Positions 781 through 12,666 of a stretch of DNA of 14,874 nucleotides are shown in pieces. Positions within the stretch are counted from its first letter, which is position 1; each line of letters opens with the position of its first letter. The DNA is taken from the NCBI GenBank assembly GCA_009782015.1, contig WQUP01000061.1, forward strand, positions 1 to 14,874. Direction: 5' to 3'. Under the pieces are notes generated by a model. It ran no database searches. It was not told where the DNA came from and worked only from the letters and a program-made list of their open reading frames with translations. The DNA is from Endomicrobiia bacterium. GTDB taxonomy: Bacteria; Elusimicrobiota; Endomicrobiia; Endomicrobiales; Endomicrobiaceae. Made by a program: the position numbers and the translations under genes.

Positions 781-905
781 GGCAGTGTGGAGAGTGGAGT
801 TATTGTGTTTCGGGGAGATTGTCCCCGAAACCTATTAATTAGTTTTCGCTTTGCGAAAACACAGACACTTCACACTCCAAACTCCACACTTCAAACTTTA
901 TCAGG
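781..905 (+). repeat. Heptad-arm palindromic element 1 with double-hairpin core
   Basis: This element fills the thyX to TPR-gene gap. The left arm (about 783-806) is purine-rich (GTGGAGA-like units). The right arm (about 866-900) is pyrimidine-rich, with 7-bp units CTTCACA, CTCCAAA, CTCCACA and CTTCAAA, roughly its reverse complement. The core holds two perfect hairpins. The first has a 10-bp stem, GTTTCGGGGA at 807-816 and its complement at 822-831. The second has an 8-bp stem, GTTTTCGC at 842-849 and its complement at 853-860. The core closely matches that of the element at 5683-5803, which has different arms. Confidence 0.85.
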
Positions 906-913
906 TTTTCGAG

Positions 914-3019
914 ATGAAAAAATACCAAATAGCAATGCTCATTGCCCTGATGTTTGTGACTGTCGTCGTGTTCTATACGGCTTTGAACGCGGATTTTGTC
1001 AATCTTGACGACAGAGTTATGGTTGTCGGGAACTGGAAAATACGTTCTTTGTCGCCGGAAAATCTGTCCGAACTTCTTTTCAAGACGCATTTCAGGCTTT
1101 ATCATCCGCTTGTCAATCTTTCTTATGCGGCAGAGTACCAGATAATGGAACTCGATCCGTACATATACCATGCTACGAACGTCATACTTCACCTTTTAAA
1201 CACGCTGTTTGTGTTTTTCATTTTCAGAAAGCTTTCCGGCGGCGATTTTTTTGTTCCGTTTATAACTGCTTTTATCTTTGCGTGCCACCCGCTTCATGTC
1301 GAGCCTGTGGCGTGGATAAGCAGCCGCAAAGACACATTGTACGCTTTTTTCTTTCTGGCGTCGCTTTTTATGTATCTGAAATCGGGAGAACAGGTATCAA
1401 AAAGGGATAAAATATCCCATTACGCGCTGTCGATGCTGCTTTTTTTGCTCGCCTGCCTTTCTAAAACCATGGCCGTAACGCTGCCGGCTATAATAGTGCT
1501 TTGCGACTGGCTGCGCGGCGAGGAATTTTTGTTTGACCGCAAAACGCTTGCGAAATATATTCCTTTTTTTATCGCGGCCGCCGCATTTGCCGCGGCTACG
1601 TACAAAGGCTACTACTTTCCGGAAGAGAAAACGCAGGCCAGCGTCTACAGTTTTTACATGAACTTTATAGGGGCTCATTTCAATTTTCTCTTTTACATAG
1701 CCAAGTTTTTTGTTCCGACAAAACTTGCCGTAGCCTATCCTTACTTTTTTTACCAAAACGAGATTCCTCCGGATTTTATAATGAAGGCTCCGGCGCTGCT
1801 GTACGGGATTGCCGTGCTTGCGCTCTACAGCCTCAAGGTTTCAAAAAAAATCTTTTTCGGATTTGCTTTTTTTGCCGTGTCTATTCTGCCCGTAATAAAT
1901 ATATTTCCTACCGGGATTGCTTCCGTTGCGGACAGATACACGTACATACCGCTGACGGGGCTTGCCTATATAAGCGCGGTTTTTATCGTTTATATCTATG
2001 GAAAACTCAAGGGCAACATTCTTAAGCGGGCGTACTTGATTGTTTTATGCGCGCTGTCCGTTGCAATGTGCGCCAATAGCATATCGCAGGCGCAGGTTTG
2101 GCTTTCTACGAGCAATCTTTTTGGAAATCAAATAAAGATCTATCCCGGACAGGTGGCGCAGGCTTATGCAACGCTTGGGGTTTACTACGGCGAGCAAGGC
2201 ATGGACAAAGAAGCGGAACGCTATCTTACCATTGCTTACGATATGGAGCCGGCGCTTTCTCTCGGGATATTTTCTCTTGCAGGCGTGAAGAAAAAACAAA
2301 AAAAGTACAAAGAAGCTCTTGAGCTTTACAGACGTGTCTCTCCGCATGACGGAAACATAGCCACGGCTTATGTAAACGCCGCGCAGATATATCTTGACAT
2401 GAAAAACGACAAAAAAGCGCTGGAACTGCTGGATACAGCTTCGCATTTCCAAAGAGATTTGACCGACGTGTATGTCGTAAGAGGAGTTTACTATGCGGAA
2501 AAAGGCGACTATAAAAATGCAATTATAGATTTTGATTCGGCAAAAAAAACAAGTCCTCAAAGAGAAGATCTTTATCTCTACGGCGGAAAGGCATATGAGA
2601 ATTTGGGCGATAATTACAAAGCGGCGTTGGAATATTCTCAAGGCATAGCGGTTCTCGGAGAAACCGAGAATTTGCTGATGAAACTCGGAGAGCTTTACTT
2701 TAAACTTGGAAAGTATGTCGCCGCGGAAAGCAAATTCAGGCGGATGATAGAACTCTATCCGGAAAGTCCGCAAGCGCGCGACCATTTGGGCAGCATATAC
2801 GCCGTAAGAGGCGACTATAAAAACGCTTTGGTGCAGTTTACAACAGCTGTGCTTATAGACAATAAATTCGCAGTTTCATATTTTCACAGGGCGGCGGCAA
2901 ATTACGAGATCGGGCATTACGAAAAAGCCGCCGAAGACGCAAGAAGAGCGGAGTCTCTGGGCTTTAAACTTCCGGATGATTTTAAACAGCAGCTTAAGGA
3001 AGCGGGAATAGTTTTATAA
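914..3019 (+). CDS. Polytopic membrane protein with C-terminal TPR repeats (TMTC/GT-C-like)
   Basis: The protein has 701 residues. The N-terminal ~390 are strongly hydrophobic, with about nine or ten membrane helices. An NLDD acidic pair (30-33) sits just after the first helix. There is a conserved HPLHVEPVAWISSRKD block (125-140) and an ADRYTYIP block (339-346). This arrangement is typical of bacterial relatives of TMTC proteins, GT-C-fold lipid-linked sugar transferases in which acidic residues after helix 1 are catalytic. Residues ~415-700 form tandem TPR repeats (for example AYATLGVYYGEQGM), probably on the non-cytoplasmic face. A glycosyltransferase role is inferred; substrate and partners are unknown. 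I chose the ATG at 914 because the upstream in-frame ATG at 851 lies inside the repeat element and would add repeat-derived residues before the first helix. The ribosome-binding site is weak. Confidence 0.8.
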   Translation: MKKYQIAMLIALMFVTVVVFYTALNADFVNLDDRVMVVGNWKIRSLSPENLSELLFKTHFRLYHPLVNLSYAAEYQIMELDPYIYHATNVILHLLNTLFVFFIFRKLSGGDFFVPFITAFIFACHPLHVEPVAWISSRKDTLYAFFFLASLFMYLKSGEQVSKRDKISHYALSMLLFLLACLSKTMAVTLPAIIVLCDWLRGEEFLFDRKTLAKYIPFFIAAAAFAAATYKGYYFPEEKTQASVYSFYMNFIGAHFNFLFYIAKFFVPTKLAVAYPYFFYQNEIPPDFIMKAPALLYGIAVLALYSLKVSKKIFFGFAFFAVSILPVINIFPTGIASVADRYTYIPLTGLAYISAVFIVYIYGKLKGNILKRAYLIVLCALSVAMCANSISQAQVWLSTSNLFGNQIKIYPGQVAQAYATLGVYYGEQGMDKEAERYLTIAYDMEPALSLGIFSLAGVKKKQKKYKEALELYRRVSPHDGNIATAYVNAAQIYLDMKNDKKALELLDTASHFQRDLTDVYVVRGVYYAEKGDYKNAIIDFDSAKKTSPQREDLYLYGGKAYENLGDNYKAALEYSQGIAVLGETENLLMKLGELYFKLGKYVAAESKFRRMIELYPESPQARDHLGSIYAVRGDYKNALVQFTTAVLIDNKFAVSYFHRAAANYEIGHYEKAAEDARRAESLGFKLPDDFKQQLKEAGIVL

Positions 3020-3022
3020 AAT

Positions 3023-3116
3023 AGAGTGAAGAGTGGAGAGTGAGGAGTGAAGATACGGCAAAACTGCTGTTTTGCAGTTGTCGTATCTCAACTCTTCACT
3101 CTTCAATCTCCACTCT
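3023..3116 (+). repeat. Heptad-arm palindromic element 2 (complete, purine-rich arms)
   Basis: The left arm (3023-3057) is exactly five 7-bp units: AGAGTGA, AGAGTGG, AGAGTGA, GGAGTGA and AGATACG. The right arm (3082-3116) is its inverted counterpart; the two agree at 29 of 35 positions, with mismatches at unit positions 1, 4, 6 and 7. The 24-bp core (3058-3081) folds by itself: GCAAAAC pairs with GTTTTGC. This is the cleanest copy of the family in the window. It fills most of the gap between the TPR protein and the antiporter. Confidence 0.92.
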
Positions 3117-3134
3117 GCAGTTTAAGGAATTGCG

Positions 3135-4363: not shown

Positions 4364-4861
4364 ATGAAAAGAACATTTGTGCTGTTATTGGCTTTTTTAT
4401 TTATGTTTTCGGTTTGCGCAAAGGATTTGGCGTTTGCGCAGGATGATGGGAACGCTCAGAGCGCCGAGGTGCTTGAGACTGACGGCGGCGCGGCCGGCGG
4501 CAGTTCATCGTCGGATTTGTCCGATAATTCCGGACAGGCTGCAGGCTCGGCTCTTCAAACAGGAGTAAACAAGATTGAGGATGCGGTAAAGACCGTTCAG
4601 AAAACGTCTGCCAAGGTTGAAAAAAGCGGTTTCATAGAAAAAATACTCGATTTTCTTTCAATGGTATGGCAAAAGATAAAGAAGATTTTTTCAAATCTGC
4701 CGGGCATAAAACAGTATAATGAGTCGTCATACTCAAGCGAGAACTACAAGAAAGAGATGGATGCCATGGGCGCCGAATACGCCTCGGACAAAGCGGTCCG
4801 GAAAAAAAGCGAATCTATGCTGAAAGAGGGAAGTAAAAAGTTCTTTAAGGGAGGCAGTTAA
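4364..4861 (+). CDS. Small secreted protein of unknown function
   Basis: I do not recognise the family. The 165-residue product starts with a classical signal peptide (MKRTFVLLLAFLFMFSVCA, then KDLAFA|QDD), with signal peptidase I cleavage likely after residue ~26. FSVC is a poor lipobox. A Ser/Gly/Asp-rich low-complexity stretch follows (~35-60). Next come a probable amphipathic helical segment and a hydrophobic/basic region around FIEKILDFLSMVWQKIKKIFSNLPG (~90-115). The C-terminal tail is charged and Lys-rich. The ATG at 4364 is preferred over an in-frame GTG at 4319 because it begins the signal peptide and follows GGGGG at good spacing; the GTG lies in repeat DNA. The TAA stop falls inside the first unit of the next repeat arm. 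Confidence 0.7.
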   Translation: MKRTFVLLLAFLFMFSVCAKDLAFAQDDGNAQSAEVLETDGGAAGGSSSSDLSDNSGQAAGSALQTGVNKIEDAVKTVQKTSAKVEKSGFIEKILDFLSMVWQKIKKIFSNLPGIKQYNESSYSSENYKKEMDAMGAEYASDKAVRKKSESMLKEGSKKFFKGGS

Positions 4862-5024
4862 TAGTTAATAATTAATAGGGTTTCTCTAAAAATCCTGCCC
4901 CGCCGTGTCATTCCCGCTTTCGCGGGAATGACAAACTAGGGTTTTTAGAGAGACCCAATAGTGAATAGCGGACTTCAAAAAATGATTTGCCGTTTATTAA
5001 CTATTCACTATTAATTATTAACTG
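4855..5024 (+). repeat. Heptad-arm palindromic element 4 (AT-rich arms, interrupted by a nested insertion)
   Basis: The left arm begins at 4855 with 7-bp units CAGTTAA, TAGTTAA and TAATTAA. It is then broken by a 78-bp insertion (4879-4956) and resumes as TAGTGAA, TAG. The right arm (4996-5024) is the inverted counterpart and ends in TTAACTG. If the insertion and one copy of AATAG are removed, the 7-bp register of the left arm is restored exactly. The element supplies the TAA stop of the preceding gene. Confidence 0.88.
4879..4956 (+). mobile_element. MITE-like insertion with TCTCTAAAAA terminal inverted repeats, nested in element 4
   Basis: The ends are inverted repeats: left GGTTTCTCTAAAAATCCT and right (reverse complement) GGTCTCTCTAAAAACCCT. 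It is flanked by AATAG at 4874-4878 and 4957-4961, consistent with a 4-5 bp target duplication; the exact boundary is ambiguous by one G. Inside lies a perfect palindromic hairpin of the GTCATTCCCGC type, GTCATTCCCGC-tttc-GCGGGAATGAC. It has no coding capacity, so it would need a transposase supplied elsewhere. A diverged relative with the same ends is at 14582-14728. Confidence 0.75.
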
Positions 5025-5122
5025 CTGTTTTACACAACCCGTAGTCTGTTATAACAATGCCATCAAAACCTGTAGTATTTCAGGCCGCCAAAACCCGCCG
5101 GAAAAAAATTTAAAAAAAATGA
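5025..5122. other. Unassigned spacer upstream of the nrdR promoter
   Basis: No gene or hairpin stands out in this stretch between repeat element 4 and the promoter candidate. Its last ~20 bp are A-rich, which could act as an UP-like element for the following promoter. I see no cobalamin riboswitch and no clear NrdR-box pair. Confidence 0.5.
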
Positions 5123-5208: not shown

Positions 5209-5688
5209 ATGAAATGTCCTTTTTGCGGAAGTTTTCAAGATCAGGTGCTTGACTCGCGTCCGGTTGAACATTCATCGGCAGTCAGAAGGCGCAGGGAGTG
5301 CGGCGAGTGCAAGAAAAGATACACTACTTTCGAAAGGCCGGAAGAAGTCTCCCTTATGGTCGTTAAATCCAACCAGAGCCGCGAGCCGTTTGACCGTCAA
5401 AAAGTAAAAGCAGGCATAGAACGCGCCTGCAGAAAGCGCCCCGTTGCAGCTGAAACCATAGATAAAATAGTAAGCGAAGTGGAAAATGAGCTGACGTCAG
5501 AGTATGTCATGGAGATACCCTCAAGCACCATAGGCCAAAAGATTTTGGAAAAGCTCTGGGACATAGATTTGGTAGCGTATATAAGGTTTGCTTCGGTTTA
5601 CAGGCAGTTCGGGGACATAGATACGTTTATGGACGAGCTTAAAAAACTCAAAAAAGAACATCAAAAAAGACAAAGACAAAGGCAATGA
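5209..5688 (+). CDS. nrdR: Transcriptional repressor NrdR
   Basis: NrdR senses ATP/dATP through an ATP-cone and represses ribonucleotide reductase genes by binding NrdR boxes. The 159-residue protein begins with the family's zinc ribbon: C3-x2-C6 in MKCPFCGS and C31-x2-C34 in ECGEC. The basic stretch VRRRRECGECKKRYTTFER is the DNA-binding part. The ATP-cone domain spans ~49-139 (VVKSNQSREPFDRQKV onward). The C-terminal tail is Lys/Gln-rich. The ATG at 5209 is needed for the zinc ribbon. The gene lies just upstream of nrdJ, its expected target, suggesting autoregulation of the pair from the promoter at 5123-5151, although I could not recognise NrdR boxes. The TGA stop lies inside an AATGATA repeat unit. 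Confidence 0.95.
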   Translation: MKCPFCGSFQDQVLDSRPVEHSSAVRRRRECGECKKRYTTFERPEEVSLMVVKSNQSREPFDRQKVKAGIERACRKRPVAAETIDKIVSEVENELTSEYVMEIPSSTIGQKILEKLWDIDLVAYIRFASVYRQFGDIDTFMDELKKLKKEHQKRQRQRQ

Positions 5689-5803
5689 TAAATGGTTAAT
5701 GATAAATGTCGGAGTTCGGGGACAATGTCCCCGAACCTACTATTAAGTTTCGCCGAAGGCGAAACACATCAATTAATCATTAACCATTAACCATTTATCA
5801 TTG
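5683..5803 (+). repeat. Heptad-arm palindromic element 5 (AATGATA arms, double-hairpin core)
   Basis: The left arm starts CAATGAT, AAATGGT, TAATGAT. The reverse complement of the right arm, which ends at 5803, starts CAATGAT, AAATGGT, TAATGGT, TAATGAT. The outer 19 bp are identical. The core has two strong hairpins: GTTCGGGGACA at 5714-5724 with its complement at 5726-5736, and GTTTCGCC at 5747-5754 with its complement at 5758-5765. Apart from small changes this is the same core as in the element at 781-905, including the CCTA..TATTAA linker and the trailing ACACA. It separates nrdR from nrdJ. Confidence 0.9.
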
Positions 5804-5822
5804 TCGTTGAGGGGGGGTTGAA

Positions 5823-8165
5823 ATGGCACAAAAAATTAAAGAAGATCTTATCTCGGAGCACGGAGCAAAACTTGAAAAAAATGCGCTTACGGTTCTTCAA
5901 AAAAGGTATTTGAAGAAAGATGCGCAGGGCAGCGTTACAGAAAAGCCGGAAGAACTGTTTTACAGGGTGGCCGAAAACATAGCCCAGGCCGATAAAATAT
6001 ACGATAAAGACGCCGATACCGACGCTTTGACAAAAGAGTTTTATCTTGCCATGTCTTCTCTTGATTTTTTGCCCAACTCCCCGACGCTTATGAACGCCGG
6101 CAGGCATTTGCAGCAGTTGTCGGCCTGCTTTGTGCTTCCCATAGAAGATTCAATGGATTCGATTTTTGAAACCCTCAAAAATACCGCGCTTATACATAAA
6201 TCCGGCGGCGGCACAGGCTTTTCATTTTCAAGGCTGCGCCCCAAAATGGATTCCGTGCAAACAACGAGCGGCGTTTCGTCGGGCCCGGTATCTTTCATGC
6301 AGGTTTTTAATGCCGCTACCGAAGCCATAAAGCAGGGCGGAACAAGGCGCGGCGCGAATATGGGTATGCTCAGGGTTGATCATCCGGACATTCTCGATTT
6401 TATAACCTGCAAAGACAAAAATGACAGCCTTAACAACTTTAATATATCCGTAGCTGTCACAAAAGAGTTTATGGACGCGCTTGAGGATGAAGAAGATTAC
6501 AATCTCTACAACCCCCGCACAAAAGCTGTCTCAGGAAAGCTCAATGCAAAAGAAGTTTTCAATAAGATAGTTGACCAAGCCTGGAAAAACGGCGAGCCAG
6601 GCATAGTTTTTATAGACCGCATGAACGATGCAAACCCCACTCCCGCCGCAGGCATGATAGAATCCACAAACCCTTGCGGAGAACAGCCGCTTCTTCCTTA
6701 TGAGTCGTGCAATCTCGGCTCGATAAATCTCGGGCATTTCATAGAAGGCAACGAAGTTGCCTGGGAAAAACTCGAAAGCACGATAAAAACTGCCGTTCAT
6801 TTTCTCGACAACGTAATCGACATGAACAACTACCCCATACAAAAAATCGGCGAGACGACCCGTTCTAACAGAAAAATAGGTCTTGGCGTAATGGGCTGGG
6901 CAGATATGCTTTTGCATCTTGGCATACCTTACGGCTCGCACGACTCGCTTATGCTTGCCGAAAAACTCATGGGCTTTATCAAGACAAAATCCCACGAAGC
7001 TTCCGAAGAGCTTGCTCTCAAGAGAGGCGCTTTCCCGAACTTTAAAAACAGCATTTACGGCAAAGGAAACCCTATAAGAAACGCCACTACCACCACCATA
7101 GCCCCTACCGGAACCATCGGCATAATAGCCTCGGCGTCCGGCGGCATAGAGCCGGTATTTGCGCTTGTCTATAAAAGAGCGCAGTGCCTCGACAACGAAG
7201 AGATGTTTGAAGTCAACCCTCTTTTTGAGAAAACAGCCAAAGAACACGGCTTTTATTCAAAAGAACTTATGGATAAAATCGCGGAAAAAGGCAGCGTGCA
7301 CGGACTTAAGGAAATACCAGAGAAGATAAAAAAGGTTTTTGTGACCGCTCAGGATATTACGCCGGAAGACCATATAAGGATGCAGGCCGCTTTTCAGAAA
7401 TTTACGGATAACGCCGTTTCTAAAACCGTCAACTTCCCGAATGCCGCCACTAAAGAAGACGTAAAAAAAGTGTACATTCTTTCTTATAAAATGGGCTGCA
7501 AAGGCGTGACGGTTTACCGCGACGGAAGCCGCGATGTGCAGGTTTTAAATCTCGCCAATAAAAAGGAAAACGGCCAGCCCGTTGAGATGATAAAAGAGAG
7601 AAAACCGAGAACCAGGCCGAAAAAGACTTTCGGATACACATATCTTATGCATACAGGCTGCGGTAAAATGTACGTTACGGTCAACGAAGACGAAAAAGGC
7701 GCATGCGAGATATTTACGCAGCTAGGAAAATCCGGCGGCTGCACCGCTTCTCAGGCAGAGGCTGTAGCGCGTCTCATCTCACTCTCTTTGCGCAGCGGAA
7801 TCGGCGAGCAGGATATAATAAACCAGCTCAAAGGCATCAGATGCCCGTCGCCGACGCTGGCGGAAGGCGGCGCCATACTTTCATGCGCGGATGCAGTTGC
7901 AAAAGCGCTTGAAGCTTACACAAAAGAAAAGATGGCTCCCGCGTTGTTTACGCAGGAAGTATCGGCCTCGGAGCCTTACGCCCAGATAGAAGAGCAGAAA
8001 GTTGCCGTAAACGAAAATGCGCACAGCGCTGCTAAGCCGTACTCTTCAGACGCCAGCAAGAACTTTTCCGGCTCATGCCCGCAGTGTCCGGAATGCGGCG
8101 AGATGCTGACGTTTGCAGAGGGCTGCGTGGTTTGCCGGGATTGCGGATATTCGAAGTGCTGGTAA
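5823..8165 (+). CDS. nrdJ: Adenosylcobalamin-dependent (class II) ribonucleotide reductase NrdJ
   Basis: NrdJ reduces ribonucleotides to deoxyribonucleotides using B12 to generate the thiyl radical, without needing oxygen. The 780 residues match the TIGR02504-type family. A redox cysteine is in QLSACFVLP (C102). The catalytic block NPCGEQPLLPYESCN starts at N283, with C285 and E287 as thiyl-radical cysteine and acid. ATTTTIAPTGTIG, further on, is the phosphate-binding loop. A linker (~700-750) leads to a C-terminal Cys-rich ribbon with Cys at 752, 755, 758, 768, 771, 774 and 779, ending CGYSKCW, which re-reduces the active site. The ATG at 5823 has a strong G-run ribosome site (GAGGGGGGG). 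It lies directly after nrdR. No cobalamin riboswitch precedes it. Confidence 0.97.
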   Translation: MAQKIKEDLISEHGAKLEKNALTVLQKRYLKKDAQGSVTEKPEELFYRVAENIAQADKIYDKDADTDALTKEFYLAMSSLDFLPNSPTLMNAGRHLQQLSACFVLPIEDSMDSIFETLKNTALIHKSGGGTGFSFSRLRPKMDSVQTTSGVSSGPVSFMQVFNAATEAIKQGGTRRGANMGMLRVDHPDILDFITCKDKNDSLNNFNISVAVTKEFMDALEDEEDYNLYNPRTKAVSGKLNAKEVFNKIVDQAWKNGEPGIVFIDRMNDANPTPAAGMIESTNPCGEQPLLPYESCNLGSINLGHFIEGNEVAWEKLESTIKTAVHFLDNVIDMNNYPIQKIGETTRSNRKIGLGVMGWADMLLHLGIPYGSHDSLMLAEKLMGFIKTKSHEASEELALKRGAFPNFKNSIYGKGNPIRNATTTTIAPTGTIGIIASASGGIEPVFALVYKRAQCLDNEEMFEVNPLFEKTAKEHGFYSKELMDKIAEKGSVHGLKEIPEKIKKVFVTAQDITPEDHIRMQAAFQKFTDNAVSKTVNFPNAATKEDVKKVYILSYKMGCKGVTVYRDGSRDVQVLNLANKKENGQPVEMIKERKPRTRPKKTFGYTYLMHTGCGKMYVTVNEDEKGACEIFTQLGKSGGCTASQAEAVARLISLSLRSGIGEQDIINQLKGIRCPSPTLAEGGAILSCADAVAKALEAYTKEKMAPALFTQEVSASEPYAQIEEQKVAVNENAHSAAKPYSSDASKNFSGSCPQCPECGEMLTFAEGCVVCRDCGYSKCW

Positions 8166-8174
8166 AAGAACGGC

Positions 8175-8209
8175 AGAGTGAAGAGTGAAAAGTGGAGAGT
8201 GAAGATACG
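8175..8209 (+). repeat. Left-arm-only heptad element 6
   Basis: Five 7-bp units: AGAGTGA, AGAGTGA, AAAGTGG, AGAGTGA and AGATACG, preceded by ACGGC. There is no inverted partner downstream before dcd; a GTCAT-type palindrome follows instead. It ends in the same GATACGGC as the copies at 3023, 4295 and 13639. Confidence 0.85.
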
Positions 8210-8218
8210 GCCTTTGCC

Positions 8219-8307
8219 GTCATTCTGAAGCGGCGAAGCCGCTGAAGAATCTAGACGATAATACTTCCGGCCTAGATACTTCGTAAACTTTGTTTACTCA
8301 GTATGAC
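8219..8307. repeat. GTCAT-ended palindromic element (GTCATTCTGA type)
   Basis: The ends are GTCATTCTGA (8219-8228) and the inverted TCAGTATGAC (8298-8307), 9 of 10 matching. Inside are a perfect hairpin, GCGGC-gaa-GCCGC (8230-8242), and a second inverted pair, GAAGAATCTAG (8244-8254) with CTAGATACTTC (8272-8282), 10 of 11 matching. It occupies the nrdJ to dcd gap. From memory, GTCATTCTGAAG..AGAATCT motifs recur in intergenic repeats of many unrelated bacteria. Confidence 0.8.
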
Positions 8308-8339
8308 AGCTGCCGAACTGTAAAATAAGGCAGATTATA

Positions 8340-9005
8340 ATGGTCAAAAGCGACAAGTGGATAAAAAAGATGGCTCTTGAGAAGAAAATCATAGAGCCGT
8401 TTGAAGCCGGACAGATAAAACAGATAGAAGGCAGAGGCGCCATTTCTTTCGGAACTTCTTCCTACGGCTATGATATGCGTTTGTCCGACGAGTTTATGGT
8501 TATGAGAACAGATGCGGCGAGGCAGGGAGGCAGAGATGCGCAGAAACAGCAGAACGGCAATCTTGTTGTTGAAGGCAGTTGCTCTGCATCTCCGCATCCC
8601 TGCATCTCAGCCTCGTCTTTTGTACTTGACCCCAAACAATCCGCCGAAACTCTGTTTGAACCCGTAAAAGTAAAAGATTTCATAGTGATTCCTCCAAACT
8701 CAATAGTTTTGGGCAAAACCATAGAGTATTTCAGAATACCTCGCGACGTCGTCACAATAGCATTCGGCAAATCCACTTATGCCAGATGCGGAATTTTCGT
8801 AAATGTGACGCCTTTTGAACCCGAGTGGGAAGGCTACGTGACGCTTTCCATAGCAAACACCACGGCTTTGCCGGTAAAAGTTTACGCCAACGAAGGCATA
8901 GCCCAGGTTTTATTTTTAGGAGCAGATGAAGTCTGCGAAATTTCTTACGCAGACAGAAAAGGCAAGTATCAGGCGCAGAAAAACATAACCTCGGCGAAAA
9001 TTTAG
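8340..9005 (+). CDS. dcd: dCTP deaminase-like protein with an in-frame palindromic insertion and altered catalytic residue
   Basis: The Dcd/dUTPase fold normally deaminates dCTP to dUTP, feeding dUMP to ThyX. Family features are clear: SDKWIKKMA at the start, SSYGYDMR (40-47), [27 protein letters not shown] (143-151), [15 protein letters not shown] (155-169), [11 protein letters not shown], and GKYQAQ near the end. Two things are odd. The protein is 221 residues; family members of this type have about 186-190. The excess is residues ~58-92, encoded by a palindromic repeat (8510-8615) in a loop before the conserved DPK. Second, where relatives read TLEFSN or TIEISN, with the catalytic Glu (E138 in E. 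coli), this protein has TLSIAN, placing Ser at 170. Activity is therefore doubtful. The reading frame is intact and the start follows AAGGCAG. Confidence 0.9.
8510..8615 (+). repeat. Intragenic palindromic element in dcd (octad arms)
   Basis: The left arm (8510-8544) and the inverted right arm (8581-8615) agree at 25 of 35 positions. Each is made of 8-bp units of the form GATGCAGA, for example GAGGCAGG and GATGCGCA on the left, and GATGCAGG, GATGCGGA and GATGCAGA in the right-arm complement. The 36-bp middle is Gln/Asn/Val coding. The protein insertion it explains is about 105 bp (35 codons), so the frame is kept. The design, degenerate short-unit inverted arms about 35 bp long around a short core, matches the intergenic elements, but the unit length is 8 and the GC content is higher. 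Confidence 0.82.
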
Positions 9006-10572: not shown

Positions 10573-10678
10573 CAGTGAATAGTTAATAATGAATAATTAA
10601 TAGTTAACGGCAAACGGCGCTAATATCGCGGTGAAGCCGCCCCAAAATTATTAACTATTCACTATTAATTATTAACTG
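10573..10678 (+). repeat. Heptad-arm palindromic element 8 (AT-rich arms)
   Basis: The left arm (10573-10607) has the 7-bp units CAGTGAA, TAGTTAA, TAATGAA, TAATTAA and TAGTTAA. The inverted right arm (10644-10678) reads in reverse complement CAGTTAA, TAATTAA, TAGTGAA, TAGTTAA, TAATTTT. The GC-rich core contains GCGGTGAAGCCGC. It is preceded by ACGGC, like several other copies. It fills the guaA to pstS gap and ends 6 nt before the pstS start. Confidence 0.9.
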
Positions 10679-11799: not shown

Positions 11800-12666
11800 A
11801 TGAGAAAAATAATAGACTCGGTAATGGAAACCATAGTTTTTATCTGCGGCATACTGTCGATAGTGTTTGTCGCGCTCATATTCGGTTTTTTGCTTAAGGA
11901 AGGCTTTGCATTCTTTAAAGAGTTCGGCGTTATAAACTTTATAACGGGAAGATTCTGGTACCCGGTCTCAAATCCTCCGCAGTTCGGCATACTTCCTTTG
12001 ATAGTAGGTTCGCTTTTGGTTACCGTCGGAGCCGCTGTTATAGCGGTTCCTATGGGCGTTATGGCTGCGCTTTATATTTCCGAGATAGCTCCGAAAGGCG
12101 TAAGAGATATATTAAAATCTTTTGTCGAGCTTATGGCCGCCATACCGAGCGTAGTTATAGGTTTTGTCGGAATGGTCACCATAGTTCCGATAATCAGAAT
12201 GACGTTTAATCTTCCGACGGGTCTTACGGCTTTTACGGGTTCGCTGATGCTTGCTTTTATGGCAATGCCTACGATAGTGACGATATCCGAAGACGCTATA
12301 CGCTCAGTTCCGTGGGCTTATAAAGAAGGCGCATTGGCGCTCGGCGCGACAAGATGGCAGACGGTAAGAAGAATAGTTTTAAAAGCTGCGATGCCCGGAA
12401 TAGTAGCCGCCGTAATGCTTGGCATAGGAAGAGTAATCGGTGAAACGATGGCTGTCATGATGATTACGGGAAACGCCGCGCAAATACCTCACTCGATATT
12501 TGAGCCGGTAAGGACGATGACCGCTACGATCGCCGCCGAAATGGGCGAAACCGTCAGAGGCGGCATGCACTACAGAGCGCTGTTTGCCTTGGGATTTGTG
12601 CTTTTTGTAATAACTTTTATCGTTAACTTTGTAGCGGATTTATTTTCGGGAAAAAGCAAGAAGTAA
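11800..12666 (+). CDS. pstC: Phosphate ABC transporter permease PstC
   Basis: PstC is one of the two inner-membrane subunits forming the phosphate channel. The 288 residues contain a cytoplasmic N-terminus, a first helix at ~10-35, a periplasmic loop, and a five-helix binding-protein-dependent permease core. The EAA loop that contacts the ATPase is visible at ~175-200 as EGALALGATRWQTVRRIV followed by MPGI. The GRVIGETMAVMM segment is typical of PstC/PstA proteins. The ATG at 11800 follows AGAGAAA. The TAA stop coincides with the first TAATTAA unit of the following repeat. PstC is assigned over PstA by gene order and the N-terminal region. Confidence 0.93.
   Translation: MRKIIDSVMETIVFICGILSIVFVALIFGFLLKEGFAFFKEFGVINFITGRFWYPVSNPPQFGILPLIVGSLLVTVGAAVIAVPMGVMAALYISEIAPKGVRDILKSFVELMAAIPSVVIGFVGMVTIVPIIRMTFNLPTGLTAFTGSLMLAFMAMPTIVTISEDAIRSVPWAYKEGALALGATRWQTVRRIVLKAAMPGIVAAVMLGIGRVIGETMAVMMITGNAAQIPHSIFEPVRTMTATIAAEMGETVRGGMHYRALFALGFVLFVITFIVNFVADLFSGKSKK

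Follow-up and report, generated by a model that had tools for sequence, protein, structure and literature searches.

A palindromic element of a dispersed octad-repeat family lying in frame within dcd of an Endomicrobiia bacterium

In passages of three papers, the Rickettsia palindromic elements (RPEs) and the elements of Wolbachia are described as dispersed palindromes of ~100-150 bp that form several families and lie in frame within conserved protein genes at solvent-exposed places, and different element families occupy one locus in orthologues (PMC3767692, PMC2229807, PMC10969869). The section of the R. japonica paper that concerns orthologues reports that every Rickettsia orthologue of the 18 genes it aligned carries inserts at the same sites, and it leaves undecided whether different elements at one site represent hotspots or a single diverged insert (PMC3767692). 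Rickettsia, Wolbachia and Methanocaldococcus are the hosts named for in-frame protein inserts in a passage of a further paper (PMC2996958). Two other kinds of repeat behave in part similarly. The REPs tagged with CGTC or GTAG, as characterized in a portion of PMC3733652, measure 20-40 bp and occur in frame in repair and replication genes, singly, as dimers or in groups. MITEs such as Correia, ERIC and RU are presented, in the sections concerned, as short elements with inverted ends and no transposase coding that are mostly intergenic, with some in-frame fusions; the stop-rich 155-bp form of Correia is almost exclusively intergenic, while the open 107-bp form is intragenic (PMC2229807, PMC10969869). 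Among the matches listed for the open-licence PMC literature, no title or abstract opening dealt with palindromic elements in proteins of Endomicrobia or Elusimicrobia, and in the relevant portion of an Endomicrobia genome paper both uses of "palindromic" concern CRISPR (PMC11257099).

The window, the whole stretch of DNA analysed here, comprises 14,874 nucleotides of contig WQUP01000061.1 from an Endomicrobiia bacterium (Elusimicrobiota; assembly GCA_009782015.1), a relative of Endomicrobium, a genus of termite guts. The genome that contains it, G000, is assembled in 290 contigs and is 71% complete. Apart from dcd, the names used below for genes with repeat inserts (pdxA, mfd, pyrK and that of an outer-membrane-like protein) were assigned by us from sequence. 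The features of the dcd locus are as follows.

8340..9005, + strand: dcd, encoding a dCTP deaminase of 221 aa (TIGR02274, 131.7 bits; PF22769, 115 bits; PDB 4dhk, E 3e-69)
8510..8618, + strand: octad palindromic element within dcd, about residues 57-93 (RNA fold z -4.18; genomic copy at C262:7948-8050)
8510..8540, + strand: left arm of the element, GATGCRGR-like octads (28 pairs with 8585-8618)
8541..8584, + strand: middle of the element, containing AACGGCA and GGCAGTTGC (seen in the sequence)
8585..8618, + strand: right arm of the element, YCYGCATC-like octads (pairing with the left arm)

The octad units visible in the element are GATGCGGC GAGGCAGG GAGGCAGA GATGCGCA / TCTGCATC TCCGCATC CCTGCATC TCAGCCTC. 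Ungapped pairing of 8510-8544 with 8581-8615 joins 25 of 35 positions, reproducing the count of the original prediction, which had ended the palindrome at 8615; when bulges are allowed, the outer stem contains 28 pairs (8510-8540 with 8585-8618), and the end of the element therefore lies nearer 8618. The best 35-column pairing within dcd scored 26 (8511/8614), and none of 60 dinucleotide shuffles of the gene exceeded 22; the RNA fold of 8505-8620 (-54.6 kcal/mol, z -4.18) was equalled in stability by 0 of 200 shuffles. On these two results a chance palindrome was rejected. The excess was weaker for a DNA fold (z -2.26, with 7 of 200 shuffles as stable). At ~110 bp and with a stable stem, the element is of the size of RPE-like elements (100-150 bp). 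Its insertion preserves the dcd frame, as had been proposed: the frame is open through the palindrome and encodes 221 aa, compared with mostly 180-190 aa in relatives, in a product that TIGR02274 recognizes at the score given above. The solved Dcd structure 4dhk covers residues 2-55 and 92-220 in alignment and has no counterpart to 56-91, which locates the ~36-residue excess at the palindrome, just before the DPK motif, where some 35 extra residues had been predicted. The dcd copy is decayed, so that its age is uncertain. In a protein collection, the window Dcd clusters with one other sequence (2 sequences on 2 contigs), which is not necessarily an independent assembly.

Palindromes of other families, with 7-bp units, are found elsewhere in the window.

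3022..3124, no strand: palindrome with AGTGRAG heptads, 3 bp past the stop of the ORF at 851-3019
5677..5809, no strand: palindrome with AATGATA/AATGGTT heptads in the nrdR-nrdJ gap, also covering the final 12 bp of the nrdR ORF
10574..10677, no strand: palindrome with AGTTAAT heptads, after guaA
12664..12763, no strand: palindrome with AGTTAAT heptads, over the stop of the ORF at 11800-12666

Elements in the window that start no more than about 15 bp from a stop codon begin at 3022, 4295, 4856, 8175, 10574 and 12664. The final codons of thyX, which encode the tail LKSGV ahead of the stop at 779, fall inside the left arm (757-777) of a palindrome in region 757-899, and the repeat thus seems to supply the thyX C-terminus. 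The listed TTG start of the ORF at 851-3019 reads through repeat arms (851-913), and by eye an ATG at ~914 looks better. At 4850-5030, nested palindromes are seen, with TGTCATTCCCGC/GCGGGAATGACA inside ATAGGGTTTCTCTAAAAA arms inside AGTTAAT heptad arms, and at 8165-8340, directly upstream of dcd, a heptad arm with no clear partner is followed by a different repeat (GAAGCGGCGAAGCCGC). No Rfam family reached its gathering score within the window.

The octad family, whose arms consist of tandem GATGCRGR octads and their complement, is dispersed. With the element as a DNA query against 41 genomes (E up to 10; G028 and G031 were outside this set), the best E value among the matches listed was at most 2.4e-6 in G000, G001, G004 and G023, and in the remaining 37 it was at least 0.03 or there was no match; at this threshold, 1-12 chance matches turn up even in genomes free of the family. 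With each arm and strand counted separately, G000 yielded at least 33 matches (the query included), G001 at least 46 and G004 at least 43, the best non-self copy listed in G000 being C262:7948-8050 (E 4e-12). No other octad match was listed in the window contig, which is why the original prediction saw other families alone. A 21-base octad pattern, allowing up to one mismatch and counting overlaps, occurred 56 times in G000, 50 in G001, 86 in G004, 10 in G031, 5 in G023 and once in G028, so that it is present in 6 of 60 genomes, G000 included (three each from this genus and a neighbouring one), and absent from the other 54; a reversed control pattern was found in 0 of 60.

A complete intergenic copy reads AACGGC, four to five octads, TAACGGCA, a variable middle, TGCCGTTA, complementary octads and GCCGTT, and thus has the inverted terminal repeats of a MITE. 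AACGGCA and GGCAGTTGC in the middle of the dcd element may be what is left of these inner borders, TAACGGCA and TGCCGTTA. Among 38 octad copies, the AACGGC/GCCGTT borders were present on the left in 12, on the right in 9, on both sides in 4 and at one end or more in 17 (raw counts, with some copies clipped by the pattern). Hairpins of other families had similar borders on at least one side in 24 of 84 cases in G004, a raw count in which ACTGC and GCAGT were also accepted. No target duplication was seen in the 4 of 38 octad copies that have both complete borders, which may be a difference from MITEs. The elements differ from MITEs in having inverted ends that are tandem arrays with a unit that varies by family. 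Their length (~110 bp) and their AACGGC/GCCGTT ends likewise set them apart from the 20-40 bp palindromes tagged with CGTC or GTAG, which they resemble in lying in frame within genes as the cited portion of that work describes (PMC3733652).

Most copies are intergenic. We drew 64 octad clusters from 56 match-holding loci, that is, places among the matches listed for G000 (18), G004 (18), G001 (18) and G023 (2), with the window outside the set. Genes were called with a home-made codon score, and 59 clusters were intergenic and 5 inside called genes, in DNA of which 81.5% was called coding; coding copies of the octad element are thus few, namely these 5 clusters and the one in dcd. Strong hairpins of any kind followed the same pattern. 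In 400 kb of G004 (86.8% coding) there were 84, of which 81 were intergenic, 2 inside genes and 1 at an edge, compared with 1 in a single shuffle; in 400 kb of G014 there were 25 (22 intergenic, 3 inside genes), compared with 3 in the shuffle, and by eye few of these resemble heptad or octad elements. This strict census misses decayed copies like that of dcd, and therefore mostly describes intact intergenic palindromes.

Octad elements also interrupt pdxA, mfd and pyrK without shifting the frame. The loops concerned are empty or differently filled in relatives, and as in RPE-like systems these conserved genes, together with dcd, have element-free orthologues. A search for similar octads in other proteins, suggested along with the original prediction, bore fruit in pdxA of G000 itself, at two places. 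PdxA of G000 carries an octad insert and, downstream, a nested composite in which heptad arms surround an octad arm that surrounds a CGTCATTGCGAG-type repeat. Among 13 aligned relatives, other inserts occupy the first loop in G004 and G005 and the second in G001, G004 and G005; the loops of the other ten have no insert or a few residues. The open frame of mfd in G000 (1196 residues, its start cut by a contig end) contains about five inserts in the N-terminal half of the protein. At loops shared with G000, Mfd of G001 has heptad composites at two and that of G004 an octad element at one, and there are no inserts in G002 and G003 and at most a few residues in G021 and G006. The insert in the third mfd loop of G000 (L311) folds at -170.9 kcal/mol over ~210 nt of coding RNA. 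In PyrK of G001, a heptad-octad composite fills a loop that in G014 reads as a CGTCATTGCGAG-type repeat and in G004 as half a heptad arm. By eye, the CGTCATTGCGAG repeat, nested here and also found in dcd of G023, looks like a CGTC-type REP. A partial octad arm is present in an outer-membrane-like protein of G000, and a hunt for repeat peptides in the ORFs of an 800 kb survey gave two half-arm candidates, both in G004, in ORFs named by eye as glutamate synthase-like and beta-ketoacyl synthase-like.

Alternatively, with no incoming element, a palindrome of this kind might have grown where it lies as replication slipped and switched templates at a hairpin. The arms are tandem short units, the unit families vary between genomes and the four complete copies have no target duplication, all of which would suit such growth. 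It would not readily place one octad sequence at dozens of positions in three genomes and in none of the 54 others, supply an AACGGC or GCCGTT border at one end or more of 17 of 38 copies, or nest three repeat types as in pdxA, and we consider it very unlikely.

The Dcd loop that precedes DPK is variable across the order. In 31 readable Dcds (L030 and L015 were left out of the count) it has 4-7 residues in 25, 12 in one and 13-39 in five, that of the window being the longest. The genomes of the same genus, G001-G004, all have loops of 6-7 residues (4 of 4), so that the alignment of Dcd from close relatives that had been proposed as a check did uncover element-free versions. Mfd, too, places G000 with these four: over its large segment, G004 Mfd matches that of G000, G001, G002 and G003 at 84-86%, compared with 71% across nearly the full length for G014, of the neighbouring genus g11. 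The octad insert is absent from the other 29 rows of a wider Dcd alignment (A1), where the loop is short; the likeliest reading is that the line of G000 acquired it. A conserved Dcd extension was rejected on the absence of the insert from the same-genus Dcds and from these rows. No empty dcd allele from the same species was found, and the insertion junction and any target duplication are accordingly unreadable.

Of 120 top homologues, 117 could be parsed (3 could not), and 15 of the 117 have a loop of at least 13 residues, a count that omits 6 of 25 rows with at least 9 residues, whose 8 extra residues come from a fallback pattern. The long loops of the 15 are mutually unrelated in sequence or nearly so, and several look by eye like repeat translations. 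An insertion conserved in length and protein sequence, lacking any palindrome at the DNA level, had been named as the outcome that would speak against the original prediction; we found unrelated long loops and a majority of relatives with short ones. By eye, the insert of G014 is a GGAAGTT-like repeat unrelated to octads, that of G023 a CGTCATTGCGAG-type repeat, and P0002, P0007, P0012 and P0015 have further unrelated inserts at the same place. The inserts fold at -25.0 kcal/mol in G014, -18.2 in G023, -24.1 in G028 and -6.9 in G031; those of G023, G028 and G031, with weak or no hairpins today, appear by eye to be repeat insertions. Judged from these alignments, the Dcd loop is an insertion hotspot. 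A second site near residue 29 has varied inserts in G028 (L004), G003 (L009), P0077, P0079 and P0116. P0112, a 325-residue Dcd, has a 108-residue lysine-rich insert in the loop before DPK that is not obviously a repeat translation, and P0013 and P0119 repeat part of their own sequence, perhaps through assembly errors.

Dcd is an oligomer. Our first model of the enlarged monomer (A1; mean pLDDT 55.7) was poor and was replaced by a second (A2; mean pLDDT 72.2), in which residues 63-72 and 78-91 fall below 50 and have no secondary structure; other low-pLDDT parts are 38-40 and 216-221. Foldseek matched model A2 to 4dhk with E 1.5e-16, TM 0.81 by target length and 0.63 by query length, and rmsd 5.8. 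The insert segment is thus predicted to be disordered, which argues against its having been retained for a role in Dcd, for example in regulation or partner binding. Such a role might be suspected because several species have inserts in this one loop; the peptides added show no relationship across species and most relatives have none, and we regard such a role as most unlikely. That the insert is an artefact of assembly seems extremely improbable. Repeats are a known cause of misassembly and G000 is fragmented, in 290 contigs; against this, the frame is kept in dcd, pdxA and mfd, and inserts of the same kind occur in G014, a single contig, and in G004 (50 contigs, 100% complete). A lineage-typical extension of the Dcd loop, with the palindrome a by-product of composition, would fit the variable loop length across Endomicrobia (15 of 117), yet it has a negligible probability in view of the same-genus Dcds free of the insert, the DNA match to another genomic copy (E 4e-12), the 0 of 200 shuffles that fold as well and the unrelated long loops of other species.

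The extra residues of Dcd thus very probably derive from a ~110-bp palindromic element of the dispersed octad family, inserted in frame in a tolerant loop. We suggest that insertions which break genes or hit structured regions would be lost, and that the few frame-keeping insertions in flexible loops would survive and then decay by mutation. Conserved columns kept outside the loop suggest that the enlarged Dcd still works.

The unit length may help to explain how octads pass through genes. Units of 8 bp (or 7 bp) take a tandem array through all three frames, so that it encodes the same cyclic peptide in any of them, for octads DAGMQGCR on one strand and PASLHPCI on the other. Since the octad is 8 bp long and stop-free, an arm is open in whichever frame or strand it is read, and the total length alone must fit. 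None of the six frames contains a stop in arrays of GATGCAGA, GATGCAGG, GATGCGGA, GAAGTTTG, GGAAGCTC, AGTGGAG or AGTGTGG. For AATTACG and AGTGAAG one strand is open, and for AGTTAAT, AATTAAC, AATTAAT, AGTTAGT and AATGGTT every frame is closed. Every heptad or octad unit met inside genes has at least one open strand. Among hand-picked intergenic octad copies, 25 of 26 have a frame open throughout the element (mean 2.8 of 6), compared with 19 of 45 period-7 elements of G004 (mean 0.58); the figure was 10 of 14 for other period-8 elements and 19 of 24 for hairpins that lack a period. In the window, five of six other palindromes tested have no open frame, and the dcd element has four. Intergenic octad copies are thus open already, and coding adaptation is needless. 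The original prediction had interpreted the insert as a dispersed palindrome behaving in frame like an RPE, with arms unlike those of the intergenic copies, suggestive of adaptation to coding. The first part stands, on the element-free same-genus orthologues, the dispersed family and the in-frame copies in other genes; the second was rejected, as octads (59 of 64 clusters) and openness (25 of 26 copies) are both commonplace between genes.

The state of the mfd loops bears on how active these repeats may be. In the third loop, the heptad arms of G000 and G001 are identical at 32/34 and 33/34 positions (65/68 together), compared with 109/213 fourfold sites (51%) and 78.7% of core nucleotides of the same gene. 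Fisher's test against fourfold sites gives p 7e-13, an overstated value as the kinds of site differ, and a binomial test against the core gives p 1e-4. The arms pair with themselves at 32/34 positions in G000 and 29/34 in G001; between them lies a CCCTCTCCCGC palindrome in G000 and a CGTCATTGCGAG-type repeat in G001, whose left arm matches an intergenic arm of G004 (L283) at every position. In the second loop the arms are decayed in G001 and intact by comparison in G000. The pattern of the third loop may represent recent re-entry at the same site, or conversion or homogenization by other copies. As a tentative proposal, and one that we lean against, Endomicrobia may host an active system of frame-independent coding palindromes that is modular (tandem 7/8-bp arms, AACGGC borders, interchangeable middles) and re-enters or is rewritten at the same few loops, giving Mfd, PdxA, PyrK and Dcd fast-changing appendages with arms near the genome-wide consensus in host genes near saturation.

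Searches for Y1_Tnp and inspection of flanks tied no mobilizing enzyme to the octad family. Y1_Tnp was present in G001, G004, G028 and G031 and was not found in G000 (71% complete), G023, G002, G003 or G014; octad-rich G001 and G004 thus have Y1 transposases and octad-free G002 and G003 lack them, as do octad-bearing G000 and G023. At least five of six Y1 genes inspected in G001, G004 and G018 have other flanking repeats, mostly of the GTCAAGGGGACG kind, and no octads were seen in the examined flanks of the six. One Y1 copy of G004 (L335) adjoins a heptad palindrome with AACGGC/GCCGTT borders.

The heptanucleotide repeats of cyanobacteria (STRR) are tandem 7-bp units located between genes. They share these features with the elements described here, the hallmark of which is two arrays that pair with each other. 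The contrast between stop-rich and open forms of Correia, as set out in the passages cited, is paralleled by that between heptads and octads (PMC2229807, PMC10969869). The closest likeness is to the RPEs and Wolbachia elements as those papers portray them, since the octad element is also a dispersed palindrome of ~110 bp, in frame, with several families and varied inserts per locus; this is a likeness of behaviour. It differs in belonging to another phylum, in its arms of tandem 7- or 8-bp units, in its AACGGC/GCCGTT borders and in its nested composites, and the same-genus dcd genes are insert-free, unlike the Rickettsia orthologues of 18 aligned genes, all of which are occupied according to the section cited (PMC3767692). 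By analogy, then, what we describe is the known behaviour of RPEs in Endomicrobia (Elusimicrobiota), with a different architecture.

Passages of the literature indicate that Rickettsia and Wolbachia are the best-known hosts of in-frame palindromes in conserved proteins and that further cases come from an archaeon and from some REP families (PMC2996958, PMC3733652); the present case adds another phylum. A simple rule emerges for repeats that pass through genes, namely a unit length that is not a multiple of three in an array that is stop-free. The phylum has a cultured member in Endomicrobium proavitum. Since a single loop is empty in some related species, occupied in others and differently occupied in yet others, such genomes can decide the hotspot question, and if the reading of an active system is true, the choice posed in Rickettsia between one diverged ancestral insert and repeated entry at a hotspot would be answered here as repeated entry. 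For annotation there is a warning: loop inserts of Endomicrobia proteins may be repeat translations.
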